A stretch of 64,000 nt of DNA, taken from contig JALEKJ010000057.1 of NCBI GenBank assembly GCA_022771695.1, positions 124,001 through 188,000 on the forward strand, in the 5' to 3' direction. How positions within the stretch are numbered: position 1 is the stretch's first letter; each line of letters starts with the position of its first letter. The notes under the pieces are model-generated. The model was not told where the DNA came from and searched no databases. It was given only the letters and a program-made list of their open reading frames with translations. This document shows, in pieces, positions 1,858-24,993 of the stretch. A program made the position numbers and the translations under genes. This DNA comes from Roseburia sp. Its GTDB lineage: Bacteria > Bacillota > Clostridia > Lachnospirales > Lachnospiraceae.

Positions 1858-3444
1858 ATGGAAACAGTAAGATTTGATGAATTAGATTTATATCCGCAGG
1901 TGCTTCGGGCGATTGCGGAGATGGGATTCGAGGAGGCGACACCGATTCAGAGTCAGGCAATCCCGGTTGTGATGTCCGGCGTGGATGTGATTGGACAGGC
2001 ACAGACAGGAACCGGAAAGACGGCATCGTTCGGAATTCCGGTGCTTCACAAGGTGGATCCGAACAACCGTAAGACACAGGTAATCATTCTCTCACCGACG
2101 AGAGAGCTTGCCATTCAGGTGGCAGATGAGATTCGCAAGCTGGCGAAATATATGCACGGAGTGAAAGTGCTTCCGGTTTACGGCGGCCAGGAAATTACCC
2201 GTCAGATTAAGGCATTAAAGGGCGGGGCACAGATTATCATCGGCACGCCGGGACGCGTGATGGATCACTTGCGCAGAAAGACAATCCGCTGTGAGGCGGT
2301 GAACACGATTGTACTTGATGAGGCGGACGAGATGCTGAACATGGGATTCCGCGACGATATCGAGACAATTTTGGAGTATATTCCGACAGAGGGGCGTCAG
2401 ACCGTACTTTTCTCGGCGACGATGCCAAAGCCGATTCTTGATATTACGAAAAAATATCAGCACGATGCAGTGACAATCAAGGTCGTGAAGAAGGAACTGA
2501 CGGTTCCGAGCATTGAACAGTACTATTACGATGTAAAGAGAAATGATAAGGTGGAGGTGCTTACCCGCCTGCTCGACTACTACAATCCAAAGCTTTCGCT
2601 GGTATTCTGCAACACGAAGCGCATGGTGGATGAACTGACGGAAGAATTAAAAGGGCGTGGGTATTTTGCGGAAGGGCTGCACGGCGATATGAAGCAGACA
2701 CAGCGTGACCGTGTCATGAAGGGCTTCCGCAGCGGCAAGACAGAGATTTTGATTGCGACGGATGTCGCAGCGCGAGGTATCGATGTGGATGATGTCGAGG
2801 CAGTGTTCAACTACGACATTCCGCAGGATGACGAATATTATGTGCACCGCATCGGACGTACCGGACGTGCAGGACGCACCGGACGCGCTTTTACTTTTGT
2901 AAAAGGAAAAGAAGTCTACAAATTAAAAGATATCATGCGCTACTGCAAGACGAAAATCGTGGCGATGCCGATTCCATCCACGGACGATGTCGCGCAGATT
3001 AAGGCAGAGAAGGTCTTGGAGGAGATTGGACGTATCATTGATGAGGAGAATTTGAAGGACGTAATCGACATTATTGAGCATCAGATTAATGCATCGGATT
3101 ACACCGCTATGGATATTGCCGCGGCATTTTTGAAGCAGGCGCTCGGTCAGGTGAACTTGGAAAAAGACGATGACTTTGATTTTGACAATACCGGCGCCGA
3201 GGAAGGCATGGTACGTCTGTTCATCAATATCGGCAAGCGCGACCGCGTAAAGCCGGGAGACATCCTTGGTGCAATCGCAGGAGAATCCGGTATGCCGGGC
3301 AAGCTCGTGGGTGCGATTGACATGTATGACAAGTACACGTTTGTGGAGGTTCCGCGCGAGTACGGAAGAGAGGTGCTTGAGGGCATGAAGAATGCGAAAA
3401 TCAAGGGGCGCGCGATAAGTATGGAGCCGGCAAATCAGAAATGA
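1858..3444 (+). CDS. DEAD-box ATP-dependent RNA helicase with DbpA-type C-terminal RNA-binding domain
   Basis: 528 residues. An N-terminal Q motif (ATPIQSQAIPV) is followed by motif I AQTGTGKT, Ia PTRELA, II DEAD (VLDEADEML), III SAT, and the second RecA domain with VFCNTKR, ATDVAARGIDV and HRIGRTGRAGRTGRA (motif VI). After residue ~450 the sequence MVRLFINIGKRDRVKPGDIL resembles the DbpA RNA-binding domain, as in CsdA/DeaD/CshA proteins acting on structured RNA, ribosome assembly and cold adaptation. The ATG has AGGAAGG about 9 bases upstream. The stop overlaps the next start by 4 bases (ATGA), so the XRE-TPR gene behind it may be translationally coupled. Which CshA/CsdA subgroup it belongs to is uncertain. 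Confidence 0.93.
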   Translation: METVRFDELDLYPQVLRAIAEMGFEEATPIQSQAIPVVMSGVDVIGQAQTGTGKTASFGIPVLHKVDPNNRKTQVIILSPTRELAIQVADEIRKLAKYMHGVKVLPVYGGQEITRQIKALKGGAQIIIGTPGRVMDHLRRKTIRCEAVNTIVLDEADEMLNMGFRDDIETILEYIPTEGRQTVLFSATMPKPILDITKKYQHDAVTIKVVKKELTVPSIEQYYYDVKRNDKVEVLTRLLDYYNPKLSLVFCNTKRMVDELTEELKGRGYFAEGLHGDMKQTQRDRVMKGFRSGKTEILIATDVAARGIDVDDVEAVFNYDIPQDDEYYVHRIGRTGRAGRTGRAFTFVKGKEVYKLKDIMRYCKTKIVAMPIPSTDDVAQIKAEKVLEEIGRIIDEENLKDVIDIIEHQINASDYTAMDIAAAFLKQALGQVNLEKDDDFDFDNTGAEEGMVRLFINIGKRDRVKPGDILGAIAGESGMPGKLVGAIDMYDKYTFVEVPREYGREVLEGMKNAKIKGRAISMEPANQK

Positions 3445-4382
3445 TGTGGACGACATTAGGTATTGTATTGCACTATTACAGAGAAAAGTACGATTTTTCA
3501 CAGGCGGAAATCTGTCGGGGAATATGTTCCGTGGCAACGTTGTCAAGAGTGGAGGCAGGGGAACGAGAGATTGATTCCCTGACAGGAGAACTGCTGCTAG
3601 GACGGATTGGAAAAGAGATAACACAATTCGAGTTAATGCTGAATGAAGATGATTATGGTATGTGGATTCTGCGGGAAGAAATCTGTAAAGCGGTACAAAA
3701 AAAGGATTATGAAAATGCAAAACAGAGAATTTGGCAATATCGGACACAATTGACCGCAGACCAGAAACTTCATCATCAATTTTGCGAGTATTACGAGGTA
3801 AAGATTGCAATCGCACTTCAGGAAAAGGAGGAAAAGATTTGTGCGCTGGCTTATGAGGCATTGAAGCGGACAAAACCACAGTTTGATATCAGTAACAGGG
3901 AAAGACAGCTATATACGCCGTTTGAGGTGGAACTGATTCTAATATTGATACAGAATGGCAATTTTAAAGCTGCTGAGCAGCCGATAGATAGGCTGGAGGT
4001 ACTGCTATCCTATGTAGAAACCTATTATACCGGGCAAAAACGAGAAAAGCTGAGCATTGAAATATTGTTGGAACTCATCCGACAGAATGAGAGAAATGAA
4101 AGCTGCGGAGATGCCATAAAGTATGTGGATAAAGCGCTGCTGTTTCTTTCGGAAAGTCGAAGTATGGAGCATGTGGCGGAGCTTCATTATAGGAAAGCAA
4201 TGGCGGTAAGAAAAAAGTATGGGAAAGCGGCTGAATGGGATGAAGTCTGCAAACGGGAATGCAAGCTGGCATACTTTGCTGCCCGTATGGGGAAGGATGA
4301 TGAGCTGACAGATAAGGTTTTGCGTTATTGTAAGGAGACATTGGAATGGCAAATTACAGAGCAGGAGATATTATTCGTTTAA
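3441..4382 (+). CDS. XRE-family HTH regulator with TPR-like C-terminal region (first of tandem pair)
   Basis: 313 residues. An N-terminal HTH (residues ~8-60: SQAEICRGICSVATLSRVEAG) is followed by ~240 residues of helical repeats, the layout of peptide-sensing RRNPP/Rgg-like regulators. The start overlaps the helicase stop (ATGA). The end overlaps the next gene by 37 bases, so both are probably translated from one mRNA. The pair shares the motif QxEICRGICSVxTLSRxExG and looks like a duplication. A radical SAM peptide cluster begins about 1.4 kb downstream, so control of that cluster is plausible but not shown. The ligand is unknown. Confidence 0.8.
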   Translation: MMWTTLGIVLHYYREKYDFSQAEICRGICSVATLSRVEAGEREIDSLTGELLLGRIGKEITQFELMLNEDDYGMWILREEICKAVQKKDYENAKQRIWQYRTQLTADQKLHHQFCEYYEVKIAIALQEKEEKICALAYEALKRTKPQFDISNRERQLYTPFEVELILILIQNGNFKAAEQPIDRLEVLLSYVETYYTGQKREKLSIEILLELIRQNERNESCGDAIKYVDKALLFLSESRSMEHVAELHYRKAMAVRKKYGKAAEWDEVCKRECKLAYFAARMGKDDELTDKVLRYCKETLEWQITEQEILFV

Positions 4383-5287
4383 CACGCAGTGCATTGGAAA
4401 TATCGCAGGAAGAATTATGTGATGGGATATGCTCCGTGGAGACGCTTTCCCGGATAGAAAACGGTCATCATAAAGTAAAGCCAGACACCTATTATTCCCT
4501 GATGGCGAAGCTGGAGCGGATTCCGGAAAAAAACTATGCACTGTGCATGGGGAGAAATGTGGAGCTTTTGGAGGAGCGTTTCCTCCTGGAGAATGCATTG
4601 GTAAAATTTGAATATGAGGCAGCAGGAAACTATTTAGATACAGTGCGGGAAAAGGCGCTTGACAATGTCGTTAACAGGCAATACATCATGCGCATGGGAG
4701 CGGTATTGGATTTTTATAACGGAAAAATTGACGCGGTTACGTGGGCAGAGCGGATGAAAGAGGCGATAAGATTGACATTGCCTCTTTATGAGTCTTATAC
4801 AGATCGGATTTATCCATATACTGAGCAGGAAATTCTGTGCTTTATGAATCTCGCAAACGCTTATGGACGATTAGAGCAGCAGGAGAAGGCAATTGAGATT
4901 TTTCAAATGCTGCTAAAAAACATCGATTCCGGATACATAGAAAAAAATCGAAGTGAAGTAATGAAAATAGCGATACTCAGGAATTACGAAATGGATTTAG
5001 GGGAACTGGGGCGTTATAAAGAATCGACCGAGATGATACAGGAGTGCATTCAACTAGCCGTAAGGCAGCATTACGAGAGCATATTGCCGATACTTTGGGG
5101 CGATATTGCATGGAATATGATGCAGGAAATAGAGGAAGGAGAAAGGGGACAGGAAGAATTAGAAGATGTGAAACATCTTTTGCAGCAGGCATACTATGTC
5201 GCTGCTGCAAGAAATGATAACAAGGTTGTCAGAATAACGAAAAATTATTATTATGAAAAATTCGGAGAAGAAATAGAAGAATGTTAG
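4346..5287 (+). CDS. XRE-family HTH regulator with TPR-like C-terminal region (second of tandem pair)
   Basis: 313 residues, the same length and layout as the preceding gene: HTH at residues ~8-60 (SQEELCDGICSVETLSRIENG), then TPR-like helices (MNLANAYGRLEQQEKAIEIF is typical TPR). It starts inside the previous gene, in another frame. The duplicates have diverged strongly outside the HTH. Proteins of this type usually bind a short peptide with the C-terminal superhelix. A small hydrophobic ORF (5348-5545) and a RiPP-like cluster follow on the same strand and are possible partners. No operator could be identified. Confidence 0.8.
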   Translation: MANYRAGDIIRLTRSALEISQEELCDGICSVETLSRIENGHHKVKPDTYYSLMAKLERIPEKNYALCMGRNVELLEERFLLENALVKFEYEAAGNYLDTVREKALDNVVNRQYIMRMGAVLDFYNGKIDAVTWAERMKEAIRLTLPLYESYTDRIYPYTEQEILCFMNLANAYGRLEQQEKAIEIFQMLLKNIDSGYIEKNRSEVMKIAILRNYEMDLGELGRYKESTEMIQECIQLAVRQHYESILPILWGDIAWNMMQEIEEGERGQEELEDVKHLLQQAYYVAAARNDNKVVRITKNYYYEKFGEEIEEC

Positions 5288-5347
5288 AAGTCATTTCTTT
5301 CATCGAAAAGTGAATGAACGGATGGAGTAGAAGCGGAGTTTAAAAAA

Positions 5348-5545
5348 GTGAAAGTCTCTGATAGGTTTGTACCGGACAAAAGAATGAACATGATTAAGAA
5401 TGTAGCAGTGATTTTTTTTAATGTGTTAAAAAGTTTTCTCATTTGTGTGAACCTCCTTGTTTTGTATCATTATAGTGATAATTTGGTAAAAGTACCATGT
5501 CAAAAGTGGAAAATTTTTCCACTTTTGACATGGTACTTTTTTTAG
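5348..5545 (+). CDS. Small hydrophobic ORF, possible signalling peptide (doubtful)
   Basis: A GTG start has GGAG nine bases upstream. The 65-residue product has a basic N-terminus and a hydrophobic stretch (VAVIFFNVLKSFLICVNLLV). It sits 60 bases after the tandem XRE-TPR genes, where RRNPP systems often encode their export peptide. Against it, the last ~18 codons run through a near-perfect terminator palindrome (5488-5540), so the reading frame may be accidental or only its first part meaningful. Confidence 0.3.
   Translation: MKVSDRFVPDKRMNMIKNVAVIFFNVLKSFLICVNLLVLYHYSDNLVKVPCQKWKIFPLLTWYFF
5488..5543 (+). terminator. Long near-perfect palindromic terminator
   Basis: The left arm begins AAAAGTACCATGTCAAAAG and the right arm ends CTTTTGACATGGTACTTTT, followed by further T. 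The two halves form about 26 base pairs with almost no loop. It separates the regulator genes from the peptide cluster and would end transcription in either direction. Confidence 0.75.
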
Positions 5546-5766
5546 AACAGTGTATAGTGATATGTAAAAGAGGAAGTTCCGTACCATTTTAACTTGCGGA
5601 TGCCTATAACAAGCCTTATGCCTTATTTTTGTAAATTGCAGTCGCTTTTATTTTTTGTACTGTGTTGCGCAACTCCTTGCGATCTTGATTGTAACTCCGG
5701 GGATATCAAGGATAAGTGCCAATTTTATTTACGCAGTTCAATAAAAAAGGAAGGGAGGTCGATTTT

Positions 5767-5928
5767 ATGTCACAGTGTAAGCATAATGAAAAAAAAGATT
5801 TCACGGAAGAAAAAGTTGTTAGCCTTACAGAGAAAGAGAATGAAATCAAAGTCATTGACAGTGAAGGATATGACATTGAACAATTCCTGTGCAGATGCGG
5901 CAACAAGACATCAATTACGATTTGGTAG
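5767..5928 (+). CDS. Candidate RiPP precursor peptide (53 residues)
   Basis: The ATG has a very strong site, AAGGGAGG, 8 bases upstream. The peptide is highly charged in its first ~38 residues (many E/K/D, one Cys at position 4), as expected of a leader. It ends in a short Cys-containing tail CRCGNKTSITIW with a CxC pair at residues 42 and 44 and a terminal Trp. It is the first small gene of a one-strand cluster with three radical SAM/SPASM enzymes and an exporter, the classic position for a RiPP precursor. Thioether (sactipeptide/ranthipeptide-like) or carbon-carbon cross-links on C42/C44, T/S/I or W53 are possible, but the modification cannot be read from sequence. I do not recognise the peptide family. 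A hairpin follows 20 bases after the stop. Confidence 0.65.
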   Translation: MSQCKHNEKKDFTEEKVVSLTEKENEIKVIDSEGYDIEQFLCRCGNKTSITIW

Positions 5929-5948
5929 GATTAATTGTAGTCATTGAA

Positions 5949-5982
5949 GGCAGAGAGGCATATCTTTATGGCCTCTCTGTGC
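5949..5982 (+). promoter_or_regulatory. Hairpin between precursor gene and enzyme genes
   Basis: CAGAGAGGCATA and TATGGCCTCTCTG pair around a TCTT loop with one bulged G. There is no T tract, so it is more likely an mRNA 3'-stabilising or processing element than a terminator. Such hairpins let precursor transcripts outnumber enzyme transcripts in many RiPP operons. It also covers two weaker upstream start codons of the next gene, which supports the TTG start at 6004. Confidence 0.5.
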
Positions 5983-6003
5983 ATCAAAAGAAGGGGAGAA
6001 TAC

Positions 6004-6933
6004 TTGAAATCAGTTTTATTAGAAAAACAATATAAAGAAAATTGGAATTGTGATAATTTGGAATACTTGGTCAATTTATTAGATAAGTTATACGGCGCAA
6101 TAGATATAAAAAATCCGTCTAAAAAAATCCGAATTGATTGTGAAACTGAGCAGTATATCTTTTCTAAAAACAAAAAAATATATAGACATATAGAACAAGG
6201 CAGGCCGGAGTACTTTACAGAGAGTTCATGGTATCTTCACAAAGAGACAGAGAATTGTAAAAAAGAACAATATGGTCATTTTAACTTATACTATGAAAGC
6301 AGAATTTCTAAAGAGGGTGTAGGATACCTAAATTTCATTGAAAATTACATTGCCAATGTCTCAAATCTGCTGATGCTTAGCAATCCTGCGAAAATAGATA
6401 TTTATATTGTGAACGAAAAGATACTAACAAATTTATTTGGAGATGATACTGTTACAGGTTTTTTTGACCCTTTAAAGTCTAAGATATATATTGACAAATT
6501 AGACATTCATGCAACGCATGAAATAACCCATGCTTTAGTGAATCAATGGGGTATATACACAAATTTGTTTTGCAACGAAGGCATTGCGGAGGCGTTTAAG
6601 CGACCTATAATTATACCTGAAAATTATATATATCAAATACGCTCTTTTGAAGATATCTATTTTGATTGGGATGATTTAAATCAGCAGAAGTATGGTGTAG
6701 GAGGACTTTTTTTTCGTTTTTTATTCCAAAAATATGGGTTATATATGATAAAGGAAATATGTAAGGATGCGCAGAACGCTGGAATGGAAAAAACAGAATT
6801 TGTAATAGAAAAGATTACAGGCGAAGAAAATATTTCACAAAAATTTGTTTCATGGGTTAAAAATATGGATTTTGAAAATGAGGATTGGTATTTCAGAAGG
6901 GCTGATAAAGGTTTTGCTTATGAAATTATGTAA
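6004..6933 (+). CDS. Gluzincin-like metalloprotease (HExxH), possible leader peptidase
   Basis: 309 residues from a TTG start chosen because GGGGAG lies 5-6 bases upstream; in-frame TTG 5944 and ATG 5968 lack a site and fall in or before the hairpin. The centre carries HEITHALVNQWG (H172, E173, H176), followed 16-20 residues later by NEGIAEA (E192/E196), the spacing of a gluzincin zinc site with a third Glu ligand. No signal peptide or membrane segment is seen, so it should be cytosolic. The same HExxHA plus EGIAE arrangement recurs in the lipoprotein at the far end of the cluster. It ends 14 bases inside the next gene. Likely role: processing the modified peptide; substrate and activity are inferred. 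Confidence 0.6.
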   Translation: MKSVLLEKQYKENWNCDNLEYLVNLLDKLYGAIDIKNPSKKIRIDCETEQYIFSKNKKIYRHIEQGRPEYFTESSWYLHKETENCKKEQYGHFNLYYESRISKEGVGYLNFIENYIANVSNLLMLSNPAKIDIYIVNEKILTNLFGDDTVTGFFDPLKSKIYIDKLDIHATHEITHALVNQWGIYTNLFCNEGIAEAFKRPIIIPENYIYQIRSFEDIYFDWDDLNQQKYGVGGLFFRFLFQKYGLYMIKEICKDAQNAGMEKTEFVIEKITGEENISQKFVSWVKNMDFENEDWYFRRADKGFAYEIM

Positions 6934-8146
6934 ATATGTTTTTGATGTTAGAAATGGTGAGGAACACTTACTAATTAATTTGATAAATGGGATAGCAGTT
7001 ATTATATCGAATCAAAACTATGTTAATCTGATAAATGGATACAGAGAAGGGATTGACCAAGAAGTATGGGATGTGCTAGTTCAAAAACAGTTTTTAGTAC
7101 AAAACGAAGATGATGAACTAAATTTTCCCTATGGAAAATATACTGCAATCAATATGAATATTACCAATATCTGCAATTTTAGCTGTCATTATTGTTATTT
7201 TAGGGCTAATAATAAGGAAAAGGAAGCCATGGCAGTCGATGCAGACGAATTCCTTAAATGGGTTAAAGTATATGTTATGCCAAAGCAGAAAGACATATTT
7301 ATAAATTATCTTGGCGGAGAGCCGTTGATAGAATCGGAAAAGCTTATACATATTTCAAGGAATATGCAAAAGCTTGTTGAAAATTCTTCTATGCGTTACT
7401 TTGGAGAAGTAACTACGAATGGTTATTTTCTTTCACCGCATCTTGCAAGAGTACTATTTTCAGCCGGGATAAGATGTATTCAGATTACTCTCGATGGTAA
7501 TCGTGAAGAACATAATAGAATAAGAAATTGTCACGGTGTAAATGGAACATATGACAAGATAATAAGTAATATATGTGCCTGTAATGCAATCATACCGATT
7601 ATAGTTCGGATTAACATAAACAAGAAAACTGATGTAATTGCCATATATGACCTATTAAAGGACTTAAAGGCGAAGGGGATTGAAAATATTTATTTTTCTG
7701 CAATAGAAGATAATTATCTGGGTGATTCAGACTCGGCGGAGGATAATGAATATGCGTTGTCTGACGCAGAGGCAATTGATAAATATATTAAAGTATGGAT
7801 GCTTCAAAAAAGTATGGGATTTAGATTTATTCAAAAAATACCATCAATTGTTGGAAATTGTATAGCAAAAAATCCGAACGGATATACAATAAATTACGAC
7901 GGGAAAATATATTTATGTCCAAGCACGTGTGGTATATCAAGATTTTATATCGACGATTTATATAATTTTAAATCGAAAGAAAAAAAGTCACAAATAAAAA
8001 AGGAAGATTGCAAAACGTGCGCTCTATATCCAGTGTGTATGGGTGGCTGTGATATAATTAGAAGTATTGGTCAGAAGGAGGATGCATGCAGGAAAACGTA
8101 CATCTCTCAGATACTTACTAATTATTTCAGAATTAAATATTTATGA
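6920..8146 (+). CDS. Radical SAM/SPASM peptide maturase A
   Basis: 408 residues from ATG 6920 (AAAGG 8 bases upstream), overlapping the previous gene by 14 bases. The N-terminal ~75 residues form a small domain that could bind the leader (YVFDVRNGEEHLLINLINGI). Next comes the radical SAM motif CNFSCHYC (C85, C89, C92), then YLGGEPLI and the TIM-barrel core (TTNGYFLS, ITLDGNREEHNRIRN). The C-terminus is a SPASM domain with a GKIYLCPSTCG segment and the run CKTCALYPVCMGGC, binding extra [4Fe-4S] clusters. Such enzymes install thioether or carbon-carbon cross-links on peptides. A is the most divergent of the three paralogues here (LGGEP instead of FYGGEP). Confidence 0.85.
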   Translation: MKLCKYVFDVRNGEEHLLINLINGIAVIISNQNYVNLINGYREGIDQEVWDVLVQKQFLVQNEDDELNFPYGKYTAINMNITNICNFSCHYCYFRANNKEKEAMAVDADEFLKWVKVYVMPKQKDIFINYLGGEPLIESEKLIHISRNMQKLVENSSMRYFGEVTTNGYFLSPHLARVLFSAGIRCIQITLDGNREEHNRIRNCHGVNGTYDKIISNICACNAIIPIIVRININKKTDVIAIYDLLKDLKAKGIENIYFSAIEDNYLGDSDSAEDNEYALSDAEAIDKYIKVWMLQKSMGFRFIQKIPSIVGNCIAKNPNGYTINYDGKIYLCPSTCGISRFYIDDLYNFKSKEKKSQIKKEDCKTCALYPVCMGGCDIIRSIGQKEDACRKTYISQILTNYFRIKYL

Positions 8147-8282
8147 AATATTAAAAGCTTGTAATTTGCTTGAGATGAGTTTATAAGACGATGGACTTTT
8201 GATAGTAGGGGTATTTGAAAAACTATAGATTGCAGTTTGGTGGCAAGTAATATTGAACATAAAAGACGAGGAGAGTAGATAT

Positions 8283-9596
8283 ATGCATTTATCTCATTAT
8301 ACATTATTTTTGGAATTAGGCGAAAATGAAGGTGCTTTATTCAATACTTTTTCGGGAGCATTAAGTGTAATCCCCAAACGAGCGTATTATAGCCTTCAAG
8401 GAGAATTTGAACCAAGAAAGCTGTCAGATATTTTTGAATCGGGTTCGGAATTTATAAAAGAAAAATATTGTTGTTATGCAAATGAAGATGTTGAGGCATT
8501 AGAACAGAAACTTTTATTTAATAAACACAGGAAAGATAGACTAACAGTGACGATTATGACCACATTGGCGTGCAATTTATCATGTGTTTATTGTTATCAG
8601 CAGGGGCTTGTTGACAGGTCTCTTAATATGACTTCCGAAGTTGCTGAAAAGATTAAGATATGGACTATAAACAAGATTAAAGAAAATAAGCCTAAGGAGG
8701 TGATATTTCACTTTTATGGTGGCGAGCCTTTAATTAATTTGGACGTTTTGGAAAAAATAATGCCAGAAATAATGCAGGCAGCACAGAGTGTAGGTGCGAT
8801 CTTTACCTCTTACGTCACGACTAACGGAACTTTACTGAATCAAAAAAATATTTTGCGACTTAAGAGATGGAATCTTGATAATGCGCAGATCAGTATTGAC
8901 GGGCCCAAGGAAATTCATGATGTAAGACGACCGCTCATTAATGGAGCTGGAACATATGACCGCATATTAGAAAACGTAGTGGCAGCCCTAAAAGAACATT
9001 TGCACGTTGTTGTTCGCGTAAATATTGATAAGCAGAACATCGTATATGTTGAAGATTTATTCAAAGAAATGAGAAGCAGAGGTCTTAATGAATATAGAGG
9101 ACTTCAAATTAATATTGAAATCGTAAGTCCTATTATGAATCCAACGTCGCATTGTATAAATTATACATTTAATGGAGAAGATGAAATGAAGGCACTTGCG
9201 GGATTATGGAAGATGCAGGTTGAATATGGCTTCCCAATTAAATCAGTTATGCCTATAGATAGTGCTTGTGAGAATCAGATTGAGAATTCCTATACATTCT
9301 CATCTAATGGCGATATGTATATGTGCCCTGGATTTATAGGAATTGATGATTTTATTGTAGGTAATATTATGGATGACGATTACGATAATGAAAAGTACAA
9401 TTCTTTAATTGATAAAGATGTGTGGAAAAATTGCCTGGAATGTGAATATGCACCAGTGTGCCAGGGTGGATGTAAAATGTGTGCATACGTTACACAACAT
9501 GAATTTGGAAAAACATATTGTAGGAAAGATTTTATATCTGCAATATATCCAGAATTTATAAAAAGCAAATATCATCTCGCAGTGCATAATAATTAA
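8283..9596 (+). CDS. Radical SAM/SPASM peptide maturase B
   Basis: 437 residues from ATG 8283, which has GAGGAG about 9 bases upstream (an in-frame TTG at 8253 has none). The N-terminal domain with LFNTFSGALSVIP matches that of maturase C. The radical SAM site is CNLSCVYC (C97, C101, C104), followed by FYGGEPLIN and ISIDGPKEIHDVRRP. SPASM region: GDMYMCPGF, then CLECEYAPVCQGGC and a final YCRK. Spacing from gene A is 136 bases with no other gene visible. It resembles the Cys-rich-peptide maturases often paired with small Cys peptides in Clostridia; that family link is from memory and not certain. Confidence 0.88.
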   Translation: MHLSHYTLFLELGENEGALFNTFSGALSVIPKRAYYSLQGEFEPRKLSDIFESGSEFIKEKYCCYANEDVEALEQKLLFNKHRKDRLTVTIMTTLACNLSCVYCYQQGLVDRSLNMTSEVAEKIKIWTINKIKENKPKEVIFHFYGGEPLINLDVLEKIMPEIMQAAQSVGAIFTSYVTTNGTLLNQKNILRLKRWNLDNAQISIDGPKEIHDVRRPLINGAGTYDRILENVVAALKEHLHVVVRVNIDKQNIVYVEDLFKEMRSRGLNEYRGLQINIEIVSPIMNPTSHCINYTFNGEDEMKALAGLWKMQVEYGFPIKSVMPIDSACENQIENSYTFSSNGDMYMCPGFIGIDDFIVGNIMDDDYDNEKYNSLIDKDVWKNCLECEYAPVCQGGCKMCAYVTQHEFGKTYCRKDFISAIYPEFIKSKYHLAVHNN

Positions 9597-9640
9597 AAAT
9601 TTGGTAGAAGGGAGAGGGCGTAACCCCAGAGAAGGCAAAT

Positions 9641-10912
9641 ATGGAATTTACATATTATTATGATGATATCAAGTGTGATAATAATGAGTGGCTTCTGTTC
9701 AATATTTTTTCAGGAACGGTAATTAGTGTGCCTGATAAAATACATAAGAATATAGCAGAAGGCAGGATAGAAGATATAGCGGAAGAAGAAAAAGAACTAT
9801 TGATTCAACAAGGCTTTATTGTTGATTCGCATGACGAGGAAGTAGATAAGGTAACGAATAAGCTCCTTAACATGAAATATAAGAATGATAGTTTGGTTAT
9901 AACAGTATTAACCAATATGGACTGCAATTTAGGATGTAGGTATTGTCATGAAAATGGCTTTCTGAGTCAGGCGTTCTTAACAGAGTCTCAGATTAATAAA
10001 ATCAACACATGGATCACTTCTCAAGTAAGAACAGGACAATATAAAAAAGTGACTATTTATTTCTATGGAGGCGAGCCAACGCTTAATATGCATGCCATTG
10101 AAGCAATTGCTAAACATGTGCAGTCGCTGAGCAATGAATATGATTTCAAGTATAATTTTTCTATGTCTACTAATGCAACTTTGCTTAATGATTCAATGGT
10201 AGATAGACTGGTCAATGCGCATGTCATCGACCTGCAGGTTACGTTAGATGGTCCTGAGGATATTCATGACTTTCGTAAGCCATTTTTAGATGGAAGAGGT
10301 ACATTTAAAATTATATTGGATAATATCAAAAAATATAATGATAAAATTCATTTTACTGTTAGAGCAAATGTGGATAAGAATAATTATGACCACATTCCGG
10401 AGTTAATGGATATAATTGTAGAGAACCATCTCCAGAATAAAGTGTATTTTTATTTAGATTTGATAAGTTCAACGCACAGTATGAATGAATATTGTTCTAA
10501 TAATGTCTTTACATCAATAGGAGAAATGGCATCAATCACGTATTTATGGGAAGAACAAAAGAAGAGAGGTATCCCTCTTCACGGGAAGAACGTAATTGAG
10601 GGTTTATGTGGGAATTTATCAAAATCCAATGTAACGATTTCTGCATCGGGTGAATTTTATATATGCCCTGGTCTATGTGGTATTGAGGAAGCGTGCTTAG
10701 GAAATCTTGACGCAGGATATAATTCGGTTTTTGAACGGATGATGCAAACAAATGTGTGGGAAAATTGTAAAAGGTGTCCATATCTTCCGATGTGTGCTGG
10801 TGGCTGTAGGGCACAGGCTTATATGAAATCTGGAAGCTGTTTTTCTTGTTATTGTAAAAAACGTTACTATGAATCTGTTGTAATGCAGTATATCCGGTGC
10901 AAATATGCTTAA
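9641..10912 (+). CDS. Radical SAM/SPASM peptide maturase C
   Basis: 423 residues; ATG 9641 follows GAGAAGG by 5 bases. It is clearly a paralogue of B: N-terminal LFNIFSGTVISVP, radical SAM cysteines CNLGCRYC (C95, C99, C102), FYGGEPTLN, VTLDGPEDIHDFRKP, and a SPASM tail with GEFYICPGLCG, CKRCPYLPMCAGGC and extra cysteines near the end (SCFSCYCKK). Three SPASM enzymes for one short peptide suggest sequential or different modifications, or heterodimer work with one partner as scaffold. The stop overlaps the next start by 8 bases. Confidence 0.88.
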   Translation: MEFTYYYDDIKCDNNEWLLFNIFSGTVISVPDKIHKNIAEGRIEDIAEEEKELLIQQGFIVDSHDEEVDKVTNKLLNMKYKNDSLVITVLTNMDCNLGCRYCHENGFLSQAFLTESQINKINTWITSQVRTGQYKKVTIYFYGGEPTLNMHAIEAIAKHVQSLSNEYDFKYNFSMSTNATLLNDSMVDRLVNAHVIDLQVTLDGPEDIHDFRKPFLDGRGTFKIILDNIKKYNDKIHFTVRANVDKNNYDHIPELMDIIVENHLQNKVYFYLDLISSTHSMNEYCSNNVFTSIGEMASITYLWEEQKKRGIPLHGKNVIEGLCGNLSKSNVTISASGEFYICPGLCGIEEACLGNLDAGYNSVFERMMQTNVWENCKRCPYLPMCAGGCRAQAYMKSGSCFSCYCKKRYYESVVMQYIRCKYA

Positions 10913-11525
10913 ATCAGTAGAAATATATACGATGCAAGAGTTAAGCTTGTATTATACAGAATTTTTTGAAAAAATTTTATGCCCTAAAGATAATGTATTG
11001 TATGTTGGGTATGAAAAGGATGATATATTGCTGCCTATAGTTGCTAGGAATAGTTCTAATGTAGTTGCAATTGACCGTGAACCGAAAATAATGACTCCAT
11101 ATTTGAATGTGCAATACAGAATAATGGATTTTGGGGATTTTGAATTTCGTGAAAGTGAAAAGTTTAATTTTATAATTTTCAGCTTTGTTCTGCATGAAAA
11201 TGTACCAGAATTTCATGAGCAATTTGTAAGATTAGCGAAAAGATTTTCTGATAACATAGTAATAATAGAGCCTCTTTCACGCAGCGATACGGATGGAATT
11301 GAATTTGAAAAACAAATTAAATCATCTTTTGCGGACCAAAATAGATATAAGTGTTATTATAATAATGCATATTGGAAGAAAATAGCAGATTTTAACGACG
11401 ATACAGACCTATGTTTGATGTTGAACAGAAGTAAAAATTTTGATGTCATGCCGATTCATACTTGTCACGATAAGAAATTATTTGTTTCTGTTCAGGACAT
11501 TATGGTATTGCTTATTAAAAATTAA
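10905..11525 (+). CDS. Class I methyltransferase-like protein
   Basis: 206 residues, starting inside the last codons of maturase C (ATGCTTAA). A Rossmann pattern is visible: NVLYVGYEKDD (divergent glycine loop), VVAIDREPK (acidic residue after beta-2), RIMDFGDFEF, FNFIIFSFVLHE (beta-4) and VIIEPLS. The first motif lacks the usual GxGxG, so SAM binding is uncertain and it could be a catalytically silent relative. Coupled translation with the radical SAM genes argues for a role in tailoring the peptide or protecting the host. It is very A+T-rich. Confidence 0.55.
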   Translation: MLKSVEIYTMQELSLYYTEFFEKILCPKDNVLYVGYEKDDILLPIVARNSSNVVAIDREPKIMTPYLNVQYRIMDFGDFEFRESEKFNFIIFSFVLHENVPEFHEQFVRLAKRFSDNIVIIEPLSRSDTDGIEFEKQIKSSFADQNRYKCYYNNAYWKKIADFNDDTDLCLMLNRSKNFDVMPIHTCHDKKLFVSVQDIMVLLIKN

Positions 11526-11538
11526 AAGGAAGGAAAAT

Positions 11539-12504
11539 ATGGAAAACATTATTGAGATAGAATCGCTTACAAAACGATATGAAATCAATACGGAATACGA
11601 CAATTTATGGAAGCGCTTATTTAACAAAGAGAAAAAAAGCATTTGTGCGGTAGACGATATTGACCTTGCGATAGCAAAAGGAAGTATGGTTGCGCTTCTT
11701 GGAAAAAATGGTGCGGGAAAGACATCCTTGATTAAAATGCTGACTGGAATTGTAACGCCTACCAGTGGGAGTATTGTTGCAGCCGGATTTAACCCATATA
11801 AGGACAGATACAAATATAGTTATCACATAGGGGTGGTCTTGGGACAAAAATCATTGTTATGGCATAATATTCCGGCAAAAGACTCCTTAAATTTATATAG
11901 AAGCATATATGATATCAATATAAACGACTATGAAAAGCGTTTGGGATTTTTTGCCGGGGTGTTTGATGTAAAAGATTTACTGGATACACCGGTAAGGAAA
12001 CTGTCGCTGGGCGAAAGAATGAAATTTGAATTGATAGCAGCCCTATTGCATGAGCCGGATCTTTTGTTTTTGGATGAACCTACAATTGGACTGGATATAC
12101 TGGCAAAACAACAGATGTATTCTTTTTTGAATACGGTAAACAGGGAAAAAGGGACTACAATTATTATCACTACCCATAATGTTGATGATGTTGAAAACCT
12201 ATGTGACCGTGTTGTCCTTATGGATGCCGGAAAAATCATATATGATGGCGACCGGGATGGCTTGTGCAGATATAATCAGACAAAAAAAATAGTTGTTGCA
12301 GGTGAAGTGCGATTAGACAATGCGATTAAGAGATATCTGGAAAAGAAGGAGGGGAATCAGTATGTATTTAAATGTGATGGGAATGATTCAGATGCTATCG
12401 CGTGTATTGTAGACAGAGTCGTACCAGGAAGTGATATTACCGTGATGGGAATGGATATAGAAGACGTGTTATTGAATGTATATGGAGGAAAAATCAAGCT
12501 TTGA
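11539..12504 (+). CDS. ABC transporter ATPase of the ABC-2/DUF990-linked type
   Basis: 321 residues from ATG 11539 (AAGGAAGG upstream; the longer frame before it has no site). Walker A GKNGAGKTS, a Q-loop near VVLGQKS, signature LSLGERMKFE, Walker B LLFLDEPTIGLD and the switch His in ITTHN are all present. The N-terminal TKRYEINTEYDNLWKRLFNKEK insert and the ~60-residue C-terminal extension match the ATPase type that works with paired 6-helix permeases like the two that follow. Lack of a C39 peptidase domain means that it exports but does not cleave the peptide. It probably exports the cluster product or gives immunity. Confidence 0.9.
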   Translation: MENIIEIESLTKRYEINTEYDNLWKRLFNKEKKSICAVDDIDLAIAKGSMVALLGKNGAGKTSLIKMLTGIVTPTSGSIVAAGFNPYKDRYKYSYHIGVVLGQKSLLWHNIPAKDSLNLYRSIYDININDYEKRLGFFAGVFDVKDLLDTPVRKLSLGERMKFELIAALLHEPDLLFLDEPTIGLDILAKQQMYSFLNTVNREKGTTIIITTHNVDDVENLCDRVVLMDAGKIIYDGDRDGLCRYNQTKKIVVAGEVRLDNAIKRYLEKKEGNQYVFKCDGNDSDAIACIVDRVVPGSDITVMGMDIEDVLLNVYGGKIKL

Positions 12505-13304
12505 ATTATCTGGTCAAACATATAAAAGTTGCAATTGCTTTTTTTAAAATTAGTTGGAAGAACAGTATTGAATATATGAATGACTTTGCTGTTTTATGCG
12601 TGGATTTTATAGTAACAATAGCTTCCACAATTATATTCTGGCGGTTTCTTCTGGTGGATTATGAGAAACTTGGAACCTGGTCTATGGCGGGATTAATCCT
12701 GATTGGCATTTTTGGCAACGCATCGTGGGCGATAGGAGAGATTTTTGCAGGGGCGTGGGCGCTTTCCGGAAAGATAACGGAGGGACGTCTGGATAAATAT
12801 ATGTGCCGACCGGTAAACACTTTGTTTTCTTGCGTATTAGAGGATATGCAGGTAGAAGAGATGATAAAGGGGATTCTTTCGCTGCTTATTTTACTTATAT
12901 GGCATGGGATAAAATTTGACATAGCAGTAAATCCGGCAGATGTCATATATACAATTGTCAGTCTGGTTATTGGGGTCATAATAGTTGCAATTGTGAGATG
13001 CCTGTATTCTTGCAGTGCATTCTGGTTTGAGAATACAGAAGGTCTTAATTTCCTTGTGCATATGGAAGATTTTGGATTAGAACATTATCCGCTGGATATT
13101 TTTAATAAAACCACGAAGCTTGTATTGCTTTCAATCATTCCGGTTGGTTTTGTATCGTATTTTCCTGCCATGTTTTATATGCATATAATAGAGAAACCCT
13201 ATATGTATTTATTGTTTGAAGTTATTGCAATGATAATATTGGCGTTGGCGTTACATTTAATCTGGAAGAAGGGGATAAAAAAATATGAAGCAACGGGTGG
13301 TTGA
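12501..13304 (+). CDS. ABC-2 type permease subunit 1
   Basis: 267 residues. The TTG start overlaps the ATPase stop (TTGA) with GGAGG about 12 bases upstream. About six hydrophobic segments (for example FAVLCVDFIVTIASTIIFW) and the typical loop GAWALSGKITEGRLDKYMCRPV, which matches ITRGEMSKFICRPV in the next gene. Both end in a shared IWKKGIKKYEATGG / VWSLGIRRYEAQGG tail, as expected of paralogous permeases forming a heterodimer with the ATPase. Confidence 0.85.
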   Translation: MNYLVKHIKVAIAFFKISWKNSIEYMNDFAVLCVDFIVTIASTIIFWRFLLVDYEKLGTWSMAGLILIGIFGNASWAIGEIFAGAWALSGKITEGRLDKYMCRPVNTLFSCVLEDMQVEEMIKGILSLLILLIWHGIKFDIAVNPADVIYTIVSLVIGVIIVAIVRCLYSCSAFWFENTEGLNFLVHMEDFGLEHYPLDIFNKTTKLVLLSIIPVGFVSYFPAMFYMHIIEKPYMYLLFEVIAMIILALALHLIWKKGIKKYEATGG

Positions 13305-14103
13305 CATAAAAAAGCATATTTCATTTATGAAAATTGCTAAGATTAATAAAAAAGTTTTTATTCCTAACTACTTTAACGAGCTGGTTGTATTGCCTATTCG
13401 TTTCCTGATTCTTTGCATTATCTGGTATGCGATATATAGAGTAATAGAGACAGATGAGATAAATGGGTATTCTTTATGGGGAATGATTTTGTATTACTTT
13501 GTATATGCTGCGATTATGCATATCACAACGTATTATCGGCAGCTTCCCTATACGGTATGGAATGAAATTACAAGAGGAGAAATGTCAAAGTTTATATGCA
13601 GACCTGTCTCTTATATTAAGTACCATTTTTTCTATGGACTGGGATATACTTACTACAGTATGCTGATTTGTATTCCGCTTACGATTATAACATCATTATA
13701 TTATTATCATGGTTTAGATTATGTAGTGCATGTCTTATTGTTCATTATTTCGGTTCTTTTGGGAGCTGCGGTGACTTTTTATGTGCACATTCTAATCGGA
13801 TTTCTTACATTTTGGACAGAATCTGTTTTTGGATATAGGGATTTCATACTGCATCTCGGGGCAATTTTTTCTGGGGGAATTATTCCTTTGACATTCCTGC
13901 CGGTTTTTTTACAAAAAATCAGTCTGTTTCTGCCATTTAGGTACATGATATACGAACCCATTTGCATACTTTTTGGTAATTATTCCATGGTGAATATCTG
14001 TGCTGTAATTGTAAGCCAAATTTTATGTATAATTGTTCTGGGTATTGTAACCGGTATCGTATGGAGCTTGGGAATACGCAGGTATGAAGCGCAGGGAGGT
14101 TGA
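13285..14103 (+). CDS. ABC-2 type permease subunit 2
   Basis: 272 residues, overlapping subunit 1 by 20 bases. About six membrane segments and the conserved cytosolic segment EITRGEMSKFICRPVSY, with the RRYEAQGG tail shared with subunit 1. Together with the ATPase at 11539 it completes an exporter of the uncharacterised ABC-2 (DUF990-like) class often seen in peptide clusters. The family name is from memory; the heterodimer is inferred from pairing and overlap. Confidence 0.85.
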   Translation: MKQRVVDIKKHISFMKIAKINKKVFIPNYFNELVVLPIRFLILCIIWYAIYRVIETDEINGYSLWGMILYYFVYAAIMHITTYYRQLPYTVWNEITRGEMSKFICRPVSYIKYHFFYGLGYTYYSMLICIPLTIITSLYYYHGLDYVVHVLLFIISVLLGAAVTFYVHILIGFLTFWTESVFGYRDFILHLGAIFSGGIIPLTFLPVFLQKISLFLPFRYMIYEPICILFGNYSMVNICAVIVSQILCIIVLGIVTGIVWSLGIRRYEAQGG

Positions 14104-14170
14104 TGAAAGCTGCAATATAAAATATGGGCGAATCATAATCGTAAACGTGCAATAATAGGTTGAGGTGGAG

Positions 14171-15145
14171 ATGGAAAATAATAGGTGGAAAGTAGTCGCA
14201 GTATACAAAGAAGCATATAGGGTTGTTCGGAATGGAAACGCAATGCTTACAAAAGTAACAGGAAGTTTTATCAATAATGCTTTAAGAAAAAGTGATTTTC
14301 CGGCTGTTGGAGATTGGGTATATCTGAATGAAGGGGGACTGATTGAAGGTGTTGCAGATAGAGTGAATCAGTTGTCCAGAAAATCTGCGGGCAGACGTTA
14401 TGAGGAGCAGATTATTGCAGCCAATATTGATATCATGTTTATTGTAACTTCATTGAACAAAGAGTTTAATATTAACAAATTGGGACGCTACATCATATTG
14501 GCTGAGACGAACCATATTACCCCGGTGATTTTGCTAACAAAAGCAGATATTTGTGACGACCCATACGGATATGTCAGAAAGGTAAGTTATTATTATCCGA
14601 AAGTTGAAGTTGAACTTGTCAGCACCTTTAATAATGTAGGGATTGATTTTATATATAACAAGATGGAGAAAGGTATCAGTGCAGTATTCGTCGGGACTTC
14701 AGGTGTGGGAAAGTCAACGTTGGTCAATAAATTATCAGGTCAGAATTTTATGAAGACTTCCCATATCAGGGGGGATGACAAAGGTCGCCATACTACGACA
14801 CACCGGGAGTTATTTGAACTGGAGAATGGTTCATACATAATTGATACACCCGGTATCAGGGAAATCGGGCTGTGGATAAATGATGAGAATCTATCAGAAT
14901 TTGAAGATATATATCTTTTGGGGAGGGTATGCAAATATCGTAATTGTAAGCATATAAACGAAAGTGAATGTGCAGTGAAGCAGGCGGTCAAAATGGGTGA
15001 TTTGCCGGAGGATAGATATAACAGTTATGTTAAAATGACCAGAGAAATATATTATTCAAAATTGGGACAGGATGAGGGAGAACGGTTAAGATTTAAGAGC
15101 AGGGTGAAAAGAATGAGTAAGAATGAACGCTATAATCGTCATTAA
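14171..15145 (+). CDS. rsgA: RsgA-type circularly permuted GTPase inside the peptide cluster
   Basis: 324 residues from ATG 14171 (a GTG six bases earlier is also possible; both share GAGGTGG). An N-terminal OB-like part (PAVGDWVYL) is followed by the permuted G motifs: G4 LTKAD comes before G1 GTSGVGKSTLVN, then G3 DTPGIREIG, the order that defines RsgA/YjeQ. The C-terminal zinc motif is CKYRNCKHINESEC. RsgA acts in 30S subunit maturation. A paralogue in a peptide cluster may protect or repair ribosomes against the product, or may be a passenger. Codon use is A+T-rich like the cluster, not like a housekeeping gene. It starts 67 bases after the permease stop. Confidence 0.85.
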   Translation: MENNRWKVVAVYKEAYRVVRNGNAMLTKVTGSFINNALRKSDFPAVGDWVYLNEGGLIEGVADRVNQLSRKSAGRRYEEQIIAANIDIMFIVTSLNKEFNINKLGRYIILAETNHITPVILLTKADICDDPYGYVRKVSYYYPKVEVELVSTFNNVGIDFIYNKMEKGISAVFVGTSGVGKSTLVNKLSGQNFMKTSHIRGDDKGRHTTTHRELFELENGSYIIDTPGIREIGLWINDENLSEFEDIYLLGRVCKYRNCKHINESECAVKQAVKMGDLPEDRYNSYVKMTREIYYSKLGQDEGERLRFKSRVKRMSKNERYNRH

Positions 15146-15183
15146 TACAGTAGCTTATACCGAGTTGTAATAAAGGAGTACAA

Positions 15184-16731
15184 ATGAAAAGAAAAAAAGA
15201 AATTGTACTTTGTTTATTTATGTTTGTATTTATTTCACAGGGATGCGGAAGTGATGAATACATATTGGATACGCACAAAAGGGACGACATTGTGTCAAGG
15301 CAGTTTGATATGATTCGCTGTGAAAAGGAGTATGGAACGGTCTGTGTGGAAACGACAGACGAAGCACTGGCACGGGACATTGTGAAAAATATAGACAGCG
15401 CAGTAAAAAATATCGAATTTGAGCCGGAGGAAGATGAGAAGCAGACAATCTATGTGATGAGCTCTGTACCGGCATTAACAGTAAACGCGGTAGGCGAGAA
15501 CATTATTTTTGCAGACTGTGAGGATGTAATGGCTGGCGATACCGCATATATTGTGCAGGGGCTTCTCTACAGATATTATGATTGCGAGTATTGGATTAGT
15601 TACGGATTTTCTCATAGAAATGATGAGGTTGACACGGAAGAACTGAGTCAGTACTACGGCAATTCAGATAACTGGATTCAACTACAATTATATGGAAATC
15701 ACTTTTTTGAGACATTTCAGGACGCGGAACAATGCAGAATCGAGAAAAATACAGCGGTTTCCGTAATACAGAAAATTTGTAGCTCCGGGGAGAAAATTAC
15801 GAAAGATATCGTAAACGATATAGAATGCAATAAGGAAGAATACATAAATTCATGGCTTACATCATTGGGAGTACCGGGTGGATTTGAGGTGAACCCGGAG
15901 CTTACGGAAGATAATCTTACATTTTACGCAATGGAGGATGAACTGCTCTATGTTGCGCTTGCGAACATTGTGATTCATATAGACGGGAGTCCGTATAATC
16001 CTGCCTGTGTGAGTGATATATCAGAAATGGATGAATACTTTAGCTATACGCAACAGGATATATTGGATTTAAATTCATTTGTTGAGAGCAATGATATACT
16101 TGGCGAGCTGGTTGATTGCAATAAAAAAGTGATTTGTTATAAAAATGAAAGTACAAGTATGGTAAGTTGGACAAACAAAGGAATACGGGAAATTCAATTA
16201 GTAACATGGGATTCTCTTCCGCATGAAGTCGTGCATGCGTATTTATCCATAATTGGAGAGCACGGATATCCGGGAATTGAAGAGGGAATCGCAGAGTATT
16301 TAGGAACGGTGAAGTTTAATGGATGTCGAAAAAGGCTGTCATGTGGATATTATTTAAATGGCTGGGACTATTTTGAAAAAGAAAGAAATGCTTATGAAAA
16401 TGTAAAACCGATAGACGAAGAGGACTTTGATATGGAGTTATTCTATCATCTGTGGGCGAAGTCCTTTTATAATGGGGAAAAAGACAGAGCGCAGTCAGGA
16501 CAAAGTATTAGAGATGCTTATGCTGTTGTGGGTCTTGATATAGGCCGTATCGAGGAATTTGCAGATATGACTTATATGGAATGTGAAGATTATGTCGCTT
16601 ATATTGTGAATCATTATGGATTTGACGAAGTTTTAAAGTTTTTATCAACCGACAATACCAACCGGGAGGAAAATGAAAAGCTGATTCGCCAATATCTAGA
16701 GGAATGGCAAGCGACAATCGCATATCATTAA
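15184..16731 (+). CDS. Putative lipoprotein with gluzincin-like HExxH site
   Basis: 515 residues; ATG preceded by AAAGGAG. A signal peptide of ~20 residues (MKRKKEIVLCLFMFVFISQG) ends at a Cys in a non-ideal lipobox, so it is probably a surface lipoprotein. Around residue 347 lies HEVVHAYLSIIGEHG, followed by GIEEGIAEYLG, the same HExxHA ... EGIAE pattern as the cytosolic protein at 6004-6933. The long region before it (residues 30-330) is unrecognised and rich in acidic and aromatic residues. It may mature or degrade the exported peptide outside the cell, or serve as immunity. It is the last gene of the cluster; a new promoter follows its stop. Confidence 0.6.
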   Translation: MKRKKEIVLCLFMFVFISQGCGSDEYILDTHKRDDIVSRQFDMIRCEKEYGTVCVETTDEALARDIVKNIDSAVKNIEFEPEEDEKQTIYVMSSVPALTVNAVGENIIFADCEDVMAGDTAYIVQGLLYRYYDCEYWISYGFSHRNDEVDTEELSQYYGNSDNWIQLQLYGNHFFETFQDAEQCRIEKNTAVSVIQKICSSGEKITKDIVNDIECNKEEYINSWLTSLGVPGGFEVNPELTEDNLTFYAMEDELLYVALANIVIHIDGSPYNPACVSDISEMDEYFSYTQQDILDLNSFVESNDILGELVDCNKKVICYKNESTSMVSWTNKGIREIQLVTWDSLPHEVVHAYLSIIGEHGYPGIEEGIAEYLGTVKFNGCRKRLSCGYYLNGWDYFEKERNAYENVKPIDEEDFDMELFYHLWAKSFYNGEKDRAQSGQSIRDAYAVVGLDIGRIEEFADMTYMECEDYVAYIVNHYGFDEVLKFLSTDNTNREENEKLIRQYLEEWQATIAYH

Positions 16732-23993: not shown

Positions 23994-24007
23994 GGAGATG
24001 AAAAGCT

Positions 24008-24991
24008 ATGGATCGATTTGCGGTGGATGGTCAGTATGGAAAATTTCTTGCTTCTTTTGGAATAAAAGTGGAGGAAGCGTTAAAGAAAGCCGGTGTGGCA
24101 GAGGATATCTTCAGCCATAAGACACCGACCATGTCTGCTGCAGAATACTATCGTTTTATGGATGCGCTGGGAGCATTGGCAGACAATCCGGCGATAGCGA
24201 TGCAGATTGCCACGGCAGACAACATAGAAAGTTTTTCTCCGCCTATATTTGCGGCCTATTGCAGTAAAAATGCGAGAATGTGTATAGAAAGACTGGGCAG
24301 GTATAAGAGCCTGATCGGACCGTTGCGTTACTGTGTGACGGAAACAGAGTCCACCGTGACGGTTGCGATTGTGTCTGAGAATGAGAAAGACATCATTCCT
24401 CAATTTCTCGCGCAGACAGAAATCGTATTCTTGATTAACATTATCAGAAAAGCGACAAAAGAGCCGGTTCGTCCGATTCAGGTACAAATGAGAAAGCCGG
24501 CGGAGGCAAAAGAGTTTTCCGAATACTTAAAGTGCGAGATTGTACCCGGTGAGCGGGATGCGCTGATATTTTCAAGAGAGGACTTGGAGATTCCGTTTAT
24601 CAGTCGGAACGATGCGATGTGGGAGTACTTTGAACCGGAACTAAAGCGCAGGCTGGCAGAACTGGAAGTGGATGATTCCTTTGCCACGCGCGTAAGAAGC
24701 GCGCTCACTGAACTGTTGCCGGGTGGGTGTAGCGGAATTGACGATGTTGCCGAAAAGTTAGGACTTAGTCGGAGAACATTGCAAAGAAAGCTCCGGGAAG
24801 AAAACACCAATTTTCAAAAACAGCTCAATCATACAAGAATGCTTTTGGCGCTTCATTATATAAAAAATACCGAAATGACAAGCAATGATATCGCATACTT
24901 GCTTGGATATCAGGAGCTGAATTCGTTTTTGCGTGCGTTTCATATATGGACGGGAATGAGTGTGTCGGAGTACAAAAATCGGGAGCAGTAA
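24008..24991 (+). CDS. AraC-family regulator with N-terminal AraC-binding-like domain
   Basis: 327 residues; AAGGAGATG precedes the ATG. Residues ~15-190 resemble the Arabinose_bd (PF12625-type) domain (MSAAEYYRFMDALGALADNPAIAM...), and the C-terminal ~90 residues are an AraC HTH (GIDDVAEKLGLSRRTLQRKL ... NDIAYLLGYQELNSFLRAFHIWTGMSVSEY). It is cotranscribed with the SDR and likely controls it. Its stop is followed immediately by a perfect 36-bp palindrome. Confidence 0.88.
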   Translation: MDRFAVDGQYGKFLASFGIKVEEALKKAGVAEDIFSHKTPTMSAAEYYRFMDALGALADNPAIAMQIATADNIESFSPPIFAAYCSKNARMCIERLGRYKSLIGPLRYCVTETESTVTVAIVSENEKDIIPQFLAQTEIVFLINIIRKATKEPVRPIQVQMRKPAEAKEFSEYLKCEIVPGERDALIFSREDLEIPFISRNDAMWEYFEPELKRRLAELEVDDSFATRVRSALTELLPGGCSGIDDVAEKLGLSRRTLQRKLREENTNFQKQLNHTRMLLALHYIKNTEMTSNDIAYLLGYQELNSFLRAFHIWTGMSVSEYKNREQ

Positions 24992-24993
24992 TC

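Follow-up and report, generated by a model that had tools for sequence, protein, structure and literature searches.

In Bacillus the PapR gene adjoins the gene of its receptor PlcR, which controls a dispersed regulon, and tryglysin and streptide are reportedly ribosomally synthesized and post-translationally modified peptides (RiPPs) made by radical S-adenosylmethionine (SAM) enzymes (RaS-RiPPs) and controlled by Rgg receptors and short hydrophobic peptides (SHPs). According to a review of the streptococcal systems, SHP genes of group III are convergent with rgg and overlap its 3' end, and Rgg2 and Rgg3 share promoter sites (PMC13361665). The RRNPP_detector survey describes receptor and propeptide genes beside biosynthetic clusters, those for RiPPs being the most frequent (PMC10075063), and an excerpt on thuricin CD reports that the two radical SAM enzymes TrnC and TrnD act as one complex, both being needed for cross-linking (PMC12093266). 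The locus considered here lies in a 64,000-nucleotide stretch of a Roseburia sp. genome (assembly GCA_022771695.1, contig JALEKJ010000057.1, positions 124,001 to 188,000), hereafter the window, whose own positions are used throughout. The unit at 3441–16731 is best read as a horizontally acquired, self-contained and intact-looking RiPP island of rare enzyme make-up; its predicted pheromone switch, of PlcR-like type, is found again in relatives, attached there to other cargo. That the island is under its own peptide quorum sensing, through the propeptide encoded at 5284–5442 and the receptor XRE2, is in our judgement probable. An earlier note on this DNA, made from the letters alone, had placed a candidate new RiPP system at 5767–16731; these boundaries were too narrow, the unit beginning at 3441, and left out two regulators, the propeptide gene and a palindrome. 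These make up the quorum-sensing module, for which the support is better than for any other part of the island.

The regulatory cassette

The elements of the switch are the following:
3441–4382, plus strand: XRE1, a helix-turn-helix and tetratricopeptide repeat (HTH-TPR) regulator, paralogue of XRE2 (25% over 219 aa), at the left edge of the inserted unit
4346–5287, plus strand: XRE2, an HTH-TPR regulator, predicted PlcR-like RNPP receptor
5284–5442, minus strand: candidate pheromone propeptide of 52 aa, with a 4-nt overlap with the end of XRE2 and a ribosome-binding site (RBS) matching AGGAGG at 6/6 positions
5469–5474, minus strand: -10 element TATAAT of the predicted propeptide promoter
5488–5540, no strand: perfect palindrome with 26-nt arms and a 1-nt centre, between the propeptide and precursor genes
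5494–5510, minus strand, and 5518–5534, plus strand: putative regulator boxes, back to back within the palindrome
5553–5558, plus strand: -10 element TATAGT of the predicted RiPP operon promoter

XRE2 has the architecture of RNPP receptors, an N-terminal HTH followed by a C-terminal TPR superhelix. Its closest solved structure, by profile and by model alike, is PlcR (2qfc, E 4.1e-8 over profile positions 5–273), and it matches Pfam RNPP_C at 3e-4, under the cut-off. On this profile and model evidence XRE2 is a PlcR-like receptor of the RNPP type.

The cassette recurs in relatives attached to different operons. Fifteen cassettes were compared, duplicate copies of one cassette being counted once; L026/L069 (G404) and L104 were left out, as their XRE2 runs into a contig end, as was L108, whose regulators are of about 600 aa and 29% identical, and L154–L157 were examined separately. 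In 10 of the 15 a palindrome of this kind is present at the same place, and L100 has a worn copy. Each half, read outward, consists of TCCANTTYTGACATGGT or a variant of it, about 19 bp, and then a -10 element. This element stands at an offset of 18–19 in 19 of the 20 halves of the first ten cassettes, against at most 11 in 2000 shuffles. When all 15 cassettes are scored, every one has at least one passing site and the total is 25, where 200 letter shuffles lead one to expect 0.525. Both sites pass in ten cassettes, and on the propeptide side 14 of the 15 have a passing box, the odd one being L061, which passes on the operon side only, because its other half lacks a -10 element. The arms are more alike within a locus than across loci (0/5000 permutations), and in the 3.28-Mb genome the two arms of the window are the sole matches at one mismatch or fewer. 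The box variant TGGTATGG, found in L061 and L101, goes with the XRE2 recognition helix QTL(H/Y)R, the helix elsewhere being ETLSR or ETFSR (8 loci). The canonical -35 position holds no TTGACA-like hexamer, and TTGACA, where found, is 22–23 bp from the -10 element; the missing good -35 fits activator-dependent promoters, as both divergent promoters may well be.

The palindrome could instead be a bidirectional intrinsic terminator, the regulators and the RiPP operon being unrelated neighbours, and indeed it scans as terminator-like on the plus strand, with a T tail, and A and T tracts lie beside the arms in most of the ten loci compared. We consider this improbable, since the -10 spacing is fixed on both sides, the sequence is conserved besides its pairing, and the regulators and the operon were inserted in the window as one unit. 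Moreover, four cassettes (L063/L097, L067, L098 and L107) keep a single box, on the propeptide side, where a hairpin is impossible, and yet have a -10-like hexamer at 19; in two of them, L067 and L107, no peptide operon was seen past the cassette, and L063/L097 and L098 reach contig ends.

The small minus-strand gene is read as that of a pheromone propeptide. Its product has a basic, hydrophobic, signal-peptide-like N-terminus (judged by composition, without SignalP), and a similar convergent open reading frame (ORF) lies behind XRE2 in 13 of the 15 cassettes, ten of them having passed a filter and those of L058, L064 and L067 having been added by reading. The same position, orientation and signal-like N-terminus in 13 cassettes, together with the propeptide-side box that passes even in L067 and L107, argue against the idea that this ORF is no pheromone and that XRE1 and XRE2 sense another ligand or the mature RiPP. 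In favour of that idea are the propeptide C-termini, which differ widely among cassettes, and L061 and L065, in which no clear propeptide ORF was found behind XRE2; on balance we hold it to be unlikely.

The cargo of the cassettes is varied. L064 and L068 carry a SPASM enzyme, a small precursor and an ABC exporter, L065 a precursor and an exporter only, L061 a truncated radical SAM gene with genes of the major facilitator superfamily (MFS) and ABC genes, L058 a 59-aa Cys/Gly/Trp peptide, and L099 and L100 transporters; in L060, L066, L097, L098 and L101 the cargo is not readable or is cut by contig ends. The switch is thus modular and not limited to RiPPs. In L154, from outside the genus, a regulator pair at 12302–13600 is accompanied by a convergent ORF resembling a propeptide and by two mirrored boxes, of which the one away from this ORF faces an EAL-domain gene. 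L155, from another genus (G194), has a regulator pair and three related boxes, TCCAAAAATGTCATGGT, on the minus strand at 88, 6276 and 7630, each followed after some 19 bp by a -10-like hexamer, possibly a small regulon.

The inserted unit

The unit at 3441–16731 is a clean insertion. In two relatives (G448 and G437) the site is empty, the DEAD-box helicase gene adjoining the response-regulator gene; their DNA matches the window through 3440 and resumes at 16732 or 16730, about 50 nt being replaced, and because the alignments break and resume there the unit is taken to be 3441–16731, 13.3 kb. Both flanking genes were seen in 10 of the 29 genus loci searched, with a spacing of 143–336 nt in all ten. 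In G416 the same DEAD gene is followed by a related regulator pair, a different peptide gene, an S9-type peptidase and the contig end, and on two contigs of this genome similarity to the window is lost at 3440 and regained at 16732. The suggestion that the block is likely mobile thus holds as regards its insertion; family profile scans revealed no integrase or transposase among the scanned genes of 3441–16731.

The block was also described beforehand as A+T-rich, and this is so, the G+C content of the operon being 0.35 as against 0.505 in the DEAD gene and 0.483 in the response regulator and histidine kinase genes. That of XRE1 and XRE2, 0.41–0.42, is above that of the operon, and the regulators and the operon may have joined at different times. 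Further A+T-rich stretches of the window lie at 24000–27000 and 31000–43000 (G+C 0.36–0.43 against about 0.45 around them); a bacterial large signal recognition particle RNA is at 44694–44956, and tRNAs are at 57954–58027 (plus strand) and 58087–58172 (minus strand).

The peptide operon

The named genes of 5767–16731 are all on the plus strand and nearly gapless, with gaps of -20 to +106 nt, as had been noticed before:
5767–5928, plus strand: candidate RiPP precursor, 53 aa, C-terminal end FLCRCGNKTSITIW; first operon gene, with the RBS AGGGAGG before the ATG at 5767
6004–6933, plus strand: HEX1, HExxH protein (HEITH...NEGIAE) without a membrane segment, perhaps the leader peptidase
6920–8146, plus strand: radical SAM/SPASM enzyme 1, by profile matches and motif check
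8253–9596, plus strand: radical SAM/SPASM enzyme 2 (rS2), TTG start, by the same evidence
9641–10912, plus strand: radical SAM/SPASM enzyme 3 (rS3), likewise
10905–11525, plus strand: 206-aa protein of unknown fold
11539–12504, plus strand: ABC transporter ATPase (PF00005, E 2.3e-24)
12501–13304, plus strand: ABC-2 permease 1 (PF06182)
13285–14103, plus strand: ABC-2 permease 2 (PF06182)
14171–15145, plus strand: accessory RsgA GTPase (PF03193, E 1.7e-48)
15184–16731, plus strand: HEX2, putative extracellular lipoprotein (HEVVH...EEGIAE), at the right edge of the inserted unit

Much of what the earlier note read in these genes stands: the candidate precursor beside the enzymes, the three distinct radical SAM/SPASM enzymes, the ABC-2 exporter with two permeases, the RsgA GTPase, and the two HExxH proteins, which share HExxH...(N/E)EGIAE. 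The CxxxCxxC and SPASM CxxCxxxxxC..C motifs are intact in 3/3 radical SAM proteins, which match Pfam Radical_SAM at E 5.9e-17 to 9.2e-17 and are about 25–29% identical to one another. Their best NCBIfam matches are peptide maturases, chiefly geopeptide (TIGR04280), CefB (NF038107) and TIGR04463, and none of the three meets a curated maturase cut-off, the top scores being 249.0 of 400 bits for geopeptide, 216.7/600 for CefB, 158.2/525 for TIGR04463, 149.0/600 for Clo7bot and 142.6/340 for PapB.

The enzymes are rare. A search for rS3 in 397 family genomes (E≤1e-30) gave 11 genomes, the window's own and ten at 26–32% identity; rS2 was found in the window's own genome alone among 62 genus genomes and in ten of 391 class genomes, its own and nine others at 27–31% (both at E≤1e-35), and HEX1 (E≤0.001) in its own alone among 398 phylum genomes. 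Among plasmids rS3 has eight distant records and HEX1 and the precursor gave no match; neither rS3 in viral contigs nor rS2 in genome contigs gave a relative, both scans being sensitive to close relatives only. The same gene set was not seen around the distant matches (17 annotated loci, most of them short). L083 (10367–16771, in the Lachnospiraceae genome G127) has three SPASM genes, two adjacent and one further on, with otherwise different gene content, and two plasmids of Sarcina sp. JB2 (L089 and L090, 10.0 and 11.5 kb) have radical SAM genes adjoining MFS or ABC transporter genes.

The assignment to a new RiPP system, made in the earlier note, is supported in part. In its favour are rare enzymes that reach no curated maturase cut-off and the clean insertion at a site empty in two relatives; the searches turned up no relative carrying this gene set, and the pattern that was to support it, the same genes with variable cores, did not appear for the enzymes. 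For the precursor it appeared in part, as a loose likeness to precursors under the same cassette in L064, L065 and L068, which end LAGGxGAxLxCxCxN. The alignment spans the leader and CxCxN in L068 and L065 and the leader alone in L064, and its score was equalled in 2, 9 and 2 of 2000 shuffles for L068, L065 and L064, respectively; the L058 peptide shows no likeness to the window precursor (333/2000). It may be guessed from the sequence that C42 and C44 form up to two thioethers, a cross-link via W53 or K47 being possible as well. A set of three SPASM enzymes for a single short CxC core may yield cross-links of a new pattern; the two-enzyme complex of thuricin CD implies that three SPASM genes need not mean three cross-links (PMC12093266).

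A decayed or otherwise used operon, whose SPASM proteins would act in the manner of sulfatase-type maturases, taking HEX1, HEX2 or other proteins as substrates instead of the product of the 53-aa ORF, would agree with the match to the sulfatase maturase model TIGR03942 (E 2.7e-27 to 7.8e-18, 65–96 of 349 bits) and with the lack of a relative with the same gene set in the searches above. It is made very unlikely by the intact reading frames and motifs of the operon, the best model matches being peptide maturases, the strong precursor RBS, and the resemblance of the precursor to those under the same cassette.

As previously noted, the exporter lacks a C39 leader peptidase: a Pfam scan found no C39 domain in its proteins. 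HEX1 reached no family cut-off in the profile scans, and neither HEX1 nor HEX2 has a relative among solved structures; the N-terminus of HEX2, read by eye, resembles a lipobox signal. The 206-aa protein had been called methyltransferase-like, a label that finds no support, because the protein stays under every Pfam and NCBIfam cut-off and a model built from its sequence alone could not be used (mean predicted local distance difference test score, pLDDT, 37.9); against solved structures it gave one weak match (E 0.27).

The window RsgA has diverged from another RsgA-like gene that the genome carries on contig C21, the two being 28% identical. Relatives of it at E≤1e-45 occur in 37 of 250 family genomes, a count that takes in the window's own; those at L125–L148 are 36–44% identical to it and have varied neighbours. 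When these 24 annotated short loci were compared with the window proteins by blastp, no SPASM gene came up next to RsgA, so RsgA alone was rejected as a mark of peptide clusters (L147 gave no RsgA ORF with the gene picker used). By eye, the RsgA relative in L129 and L139 adjoins another radical SAM-like gene. Duplicated core translation genes, rsgA being listed for one producer strain, have served as a hint of a ribosome-targeting product (PMC9290621); by analogy the accessory RsgA is a weak hint of such a product here.

Proposed mechanism and comparison with described systems

In the proposed mechanism the small minus-strand gene would make a secreted propeptide, whose processed C-terminus would re-enter cells and bind the TPR domain of XRE2, and probably of XRE1 too. 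Peptide-bound XRE2 would bind the two mirrored boxes of the palindrome and activate the two divergent promoters, that of the propeptide, giving autoinduction, and that of the operon. The export, trimming and re-import of the pheromone, receptor activation, divergent transcription and autoinduction are modelled on known RNPP biology (PlcR/PapR and Rgg/SHP). The three SPASM enzymes would then modify the precursor C-terminus around C42 and C44, HEX1 and/or HEX2 would cut off the leader, the ABC-2 transporter would export the product, and the accessory RsgA and perhaps HEX2 may protect the producer. Computation shows the insertion, the genes present, the PlcR-like fold, the arrangement of boxes and -10 elements, and the return of the cassette beside other operons; from these and from analogy we infer that the peptide binds and activates, what the enzymes do to the precursor, how it is cut and exported, what the product acts on and how the producer is protected.

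Several points weigh against the island as a pheromone-controlled RiPP system. The box consensus was built from ten of the fifteen cassettes and the pass threshold was set after part of the results had been seen, so that the other five cassettes are only partly independent tests. The change of helix and box in L061 and L101 counts as one event, because the two are sisters on the tree (support 92/93). One-mismatch arm matches lie away from the cassettes in relatives (two in G416, three in G447, two in G419 and two in G412, against 0–1 for the reversed control), and the palindrome, as said, scores as a terminator on the plus strand. The window propeptide shares little sequence with the others and the mature signal is only putative; the enzymes being without close relatives, a single sequence is the basis for the limits of the core and for the pairing of enzymes and substrate. 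The operons under several cassettes are unclear or not of the RiPP kind, an outgroup having an EAL gene there, and the support for the island is computational throughout.

If the proposal is true, an inducer, an operator and a promoter are now predicted for the peptide clusters of a genus that is common in the gut, direct tests of quorum sensing and of RiPP production become possible in Roseburia, and the tag TCCANTTYTGACATGGT, about 19 bp, TATAAT can be used to find operons under the same switch. A speculative extension, to which we give little credence, is that a portable pheromone cassette, made up of two PlcR-like receptors, a convergent propeptide and a palindromic divergent promoter, is common to Roseburia-group bacteria, with unrelated peptide operons joined to it, and that here the three-SPASM peptide acts on the small ribosomal subunit, the accessory RsgA being self-protection. 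In a literature search with thin coverage of subscription journals, no paper was found that describes a RiPP under RNPP control in Roseburia or another member of the Lachnospiraceae, or a single precursor served by three SPASM enzymes.

Among described enzymes, the maturases of geopeptide, CefB, TIGR04463, Clo7bot and PapB are the nearest by profile, all far under their cut-offs. Thuricin CD likewise has more than one radical SAM enzyme; it has two enzymes for two precursors, the window three for one precursor, at most a putative sactipeptide (PMC12093266). The clusters of RRNPP_detector similarly pair a receptor and a propeptide with a biosynthetic cluster, although Lachnospiraceae are not named in the family list of its 196 clusters and the word does not occur in the main text (PMC10075063). 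PlcR/PapR resembles the window in that PlcR is the best solved match of XRE2 and the propeptide gene adjoins the receptor, and differs in that the window palindrome occurs once in the genome and adjoins the second receptor. Near to it in proposed working are the streptococcal Rgg/SHP RaS-RiPPs, in which an intracellular HTH-TPR peptide receptor and a short secreted propeptide are tied to a radical SAM RiPP operon; the convergent overlap of the window propeptide with the end of XRE2 is also like that of group III SHP and rgg genes (PMC13361665). The window differs from them in that XRE2 is nearest to PlcR, the receptors are two in tandem, a single palindrome separates two promoters, the SPASM enzymes number three and the host belongs to the Lachnospiraceae. 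The SHPs are also shorter than the window propeptide. By analogy, the island would work like the Rgg/SHP-controlled RaS-RiPPs, a likeness in working that does not by itself make it one of them.

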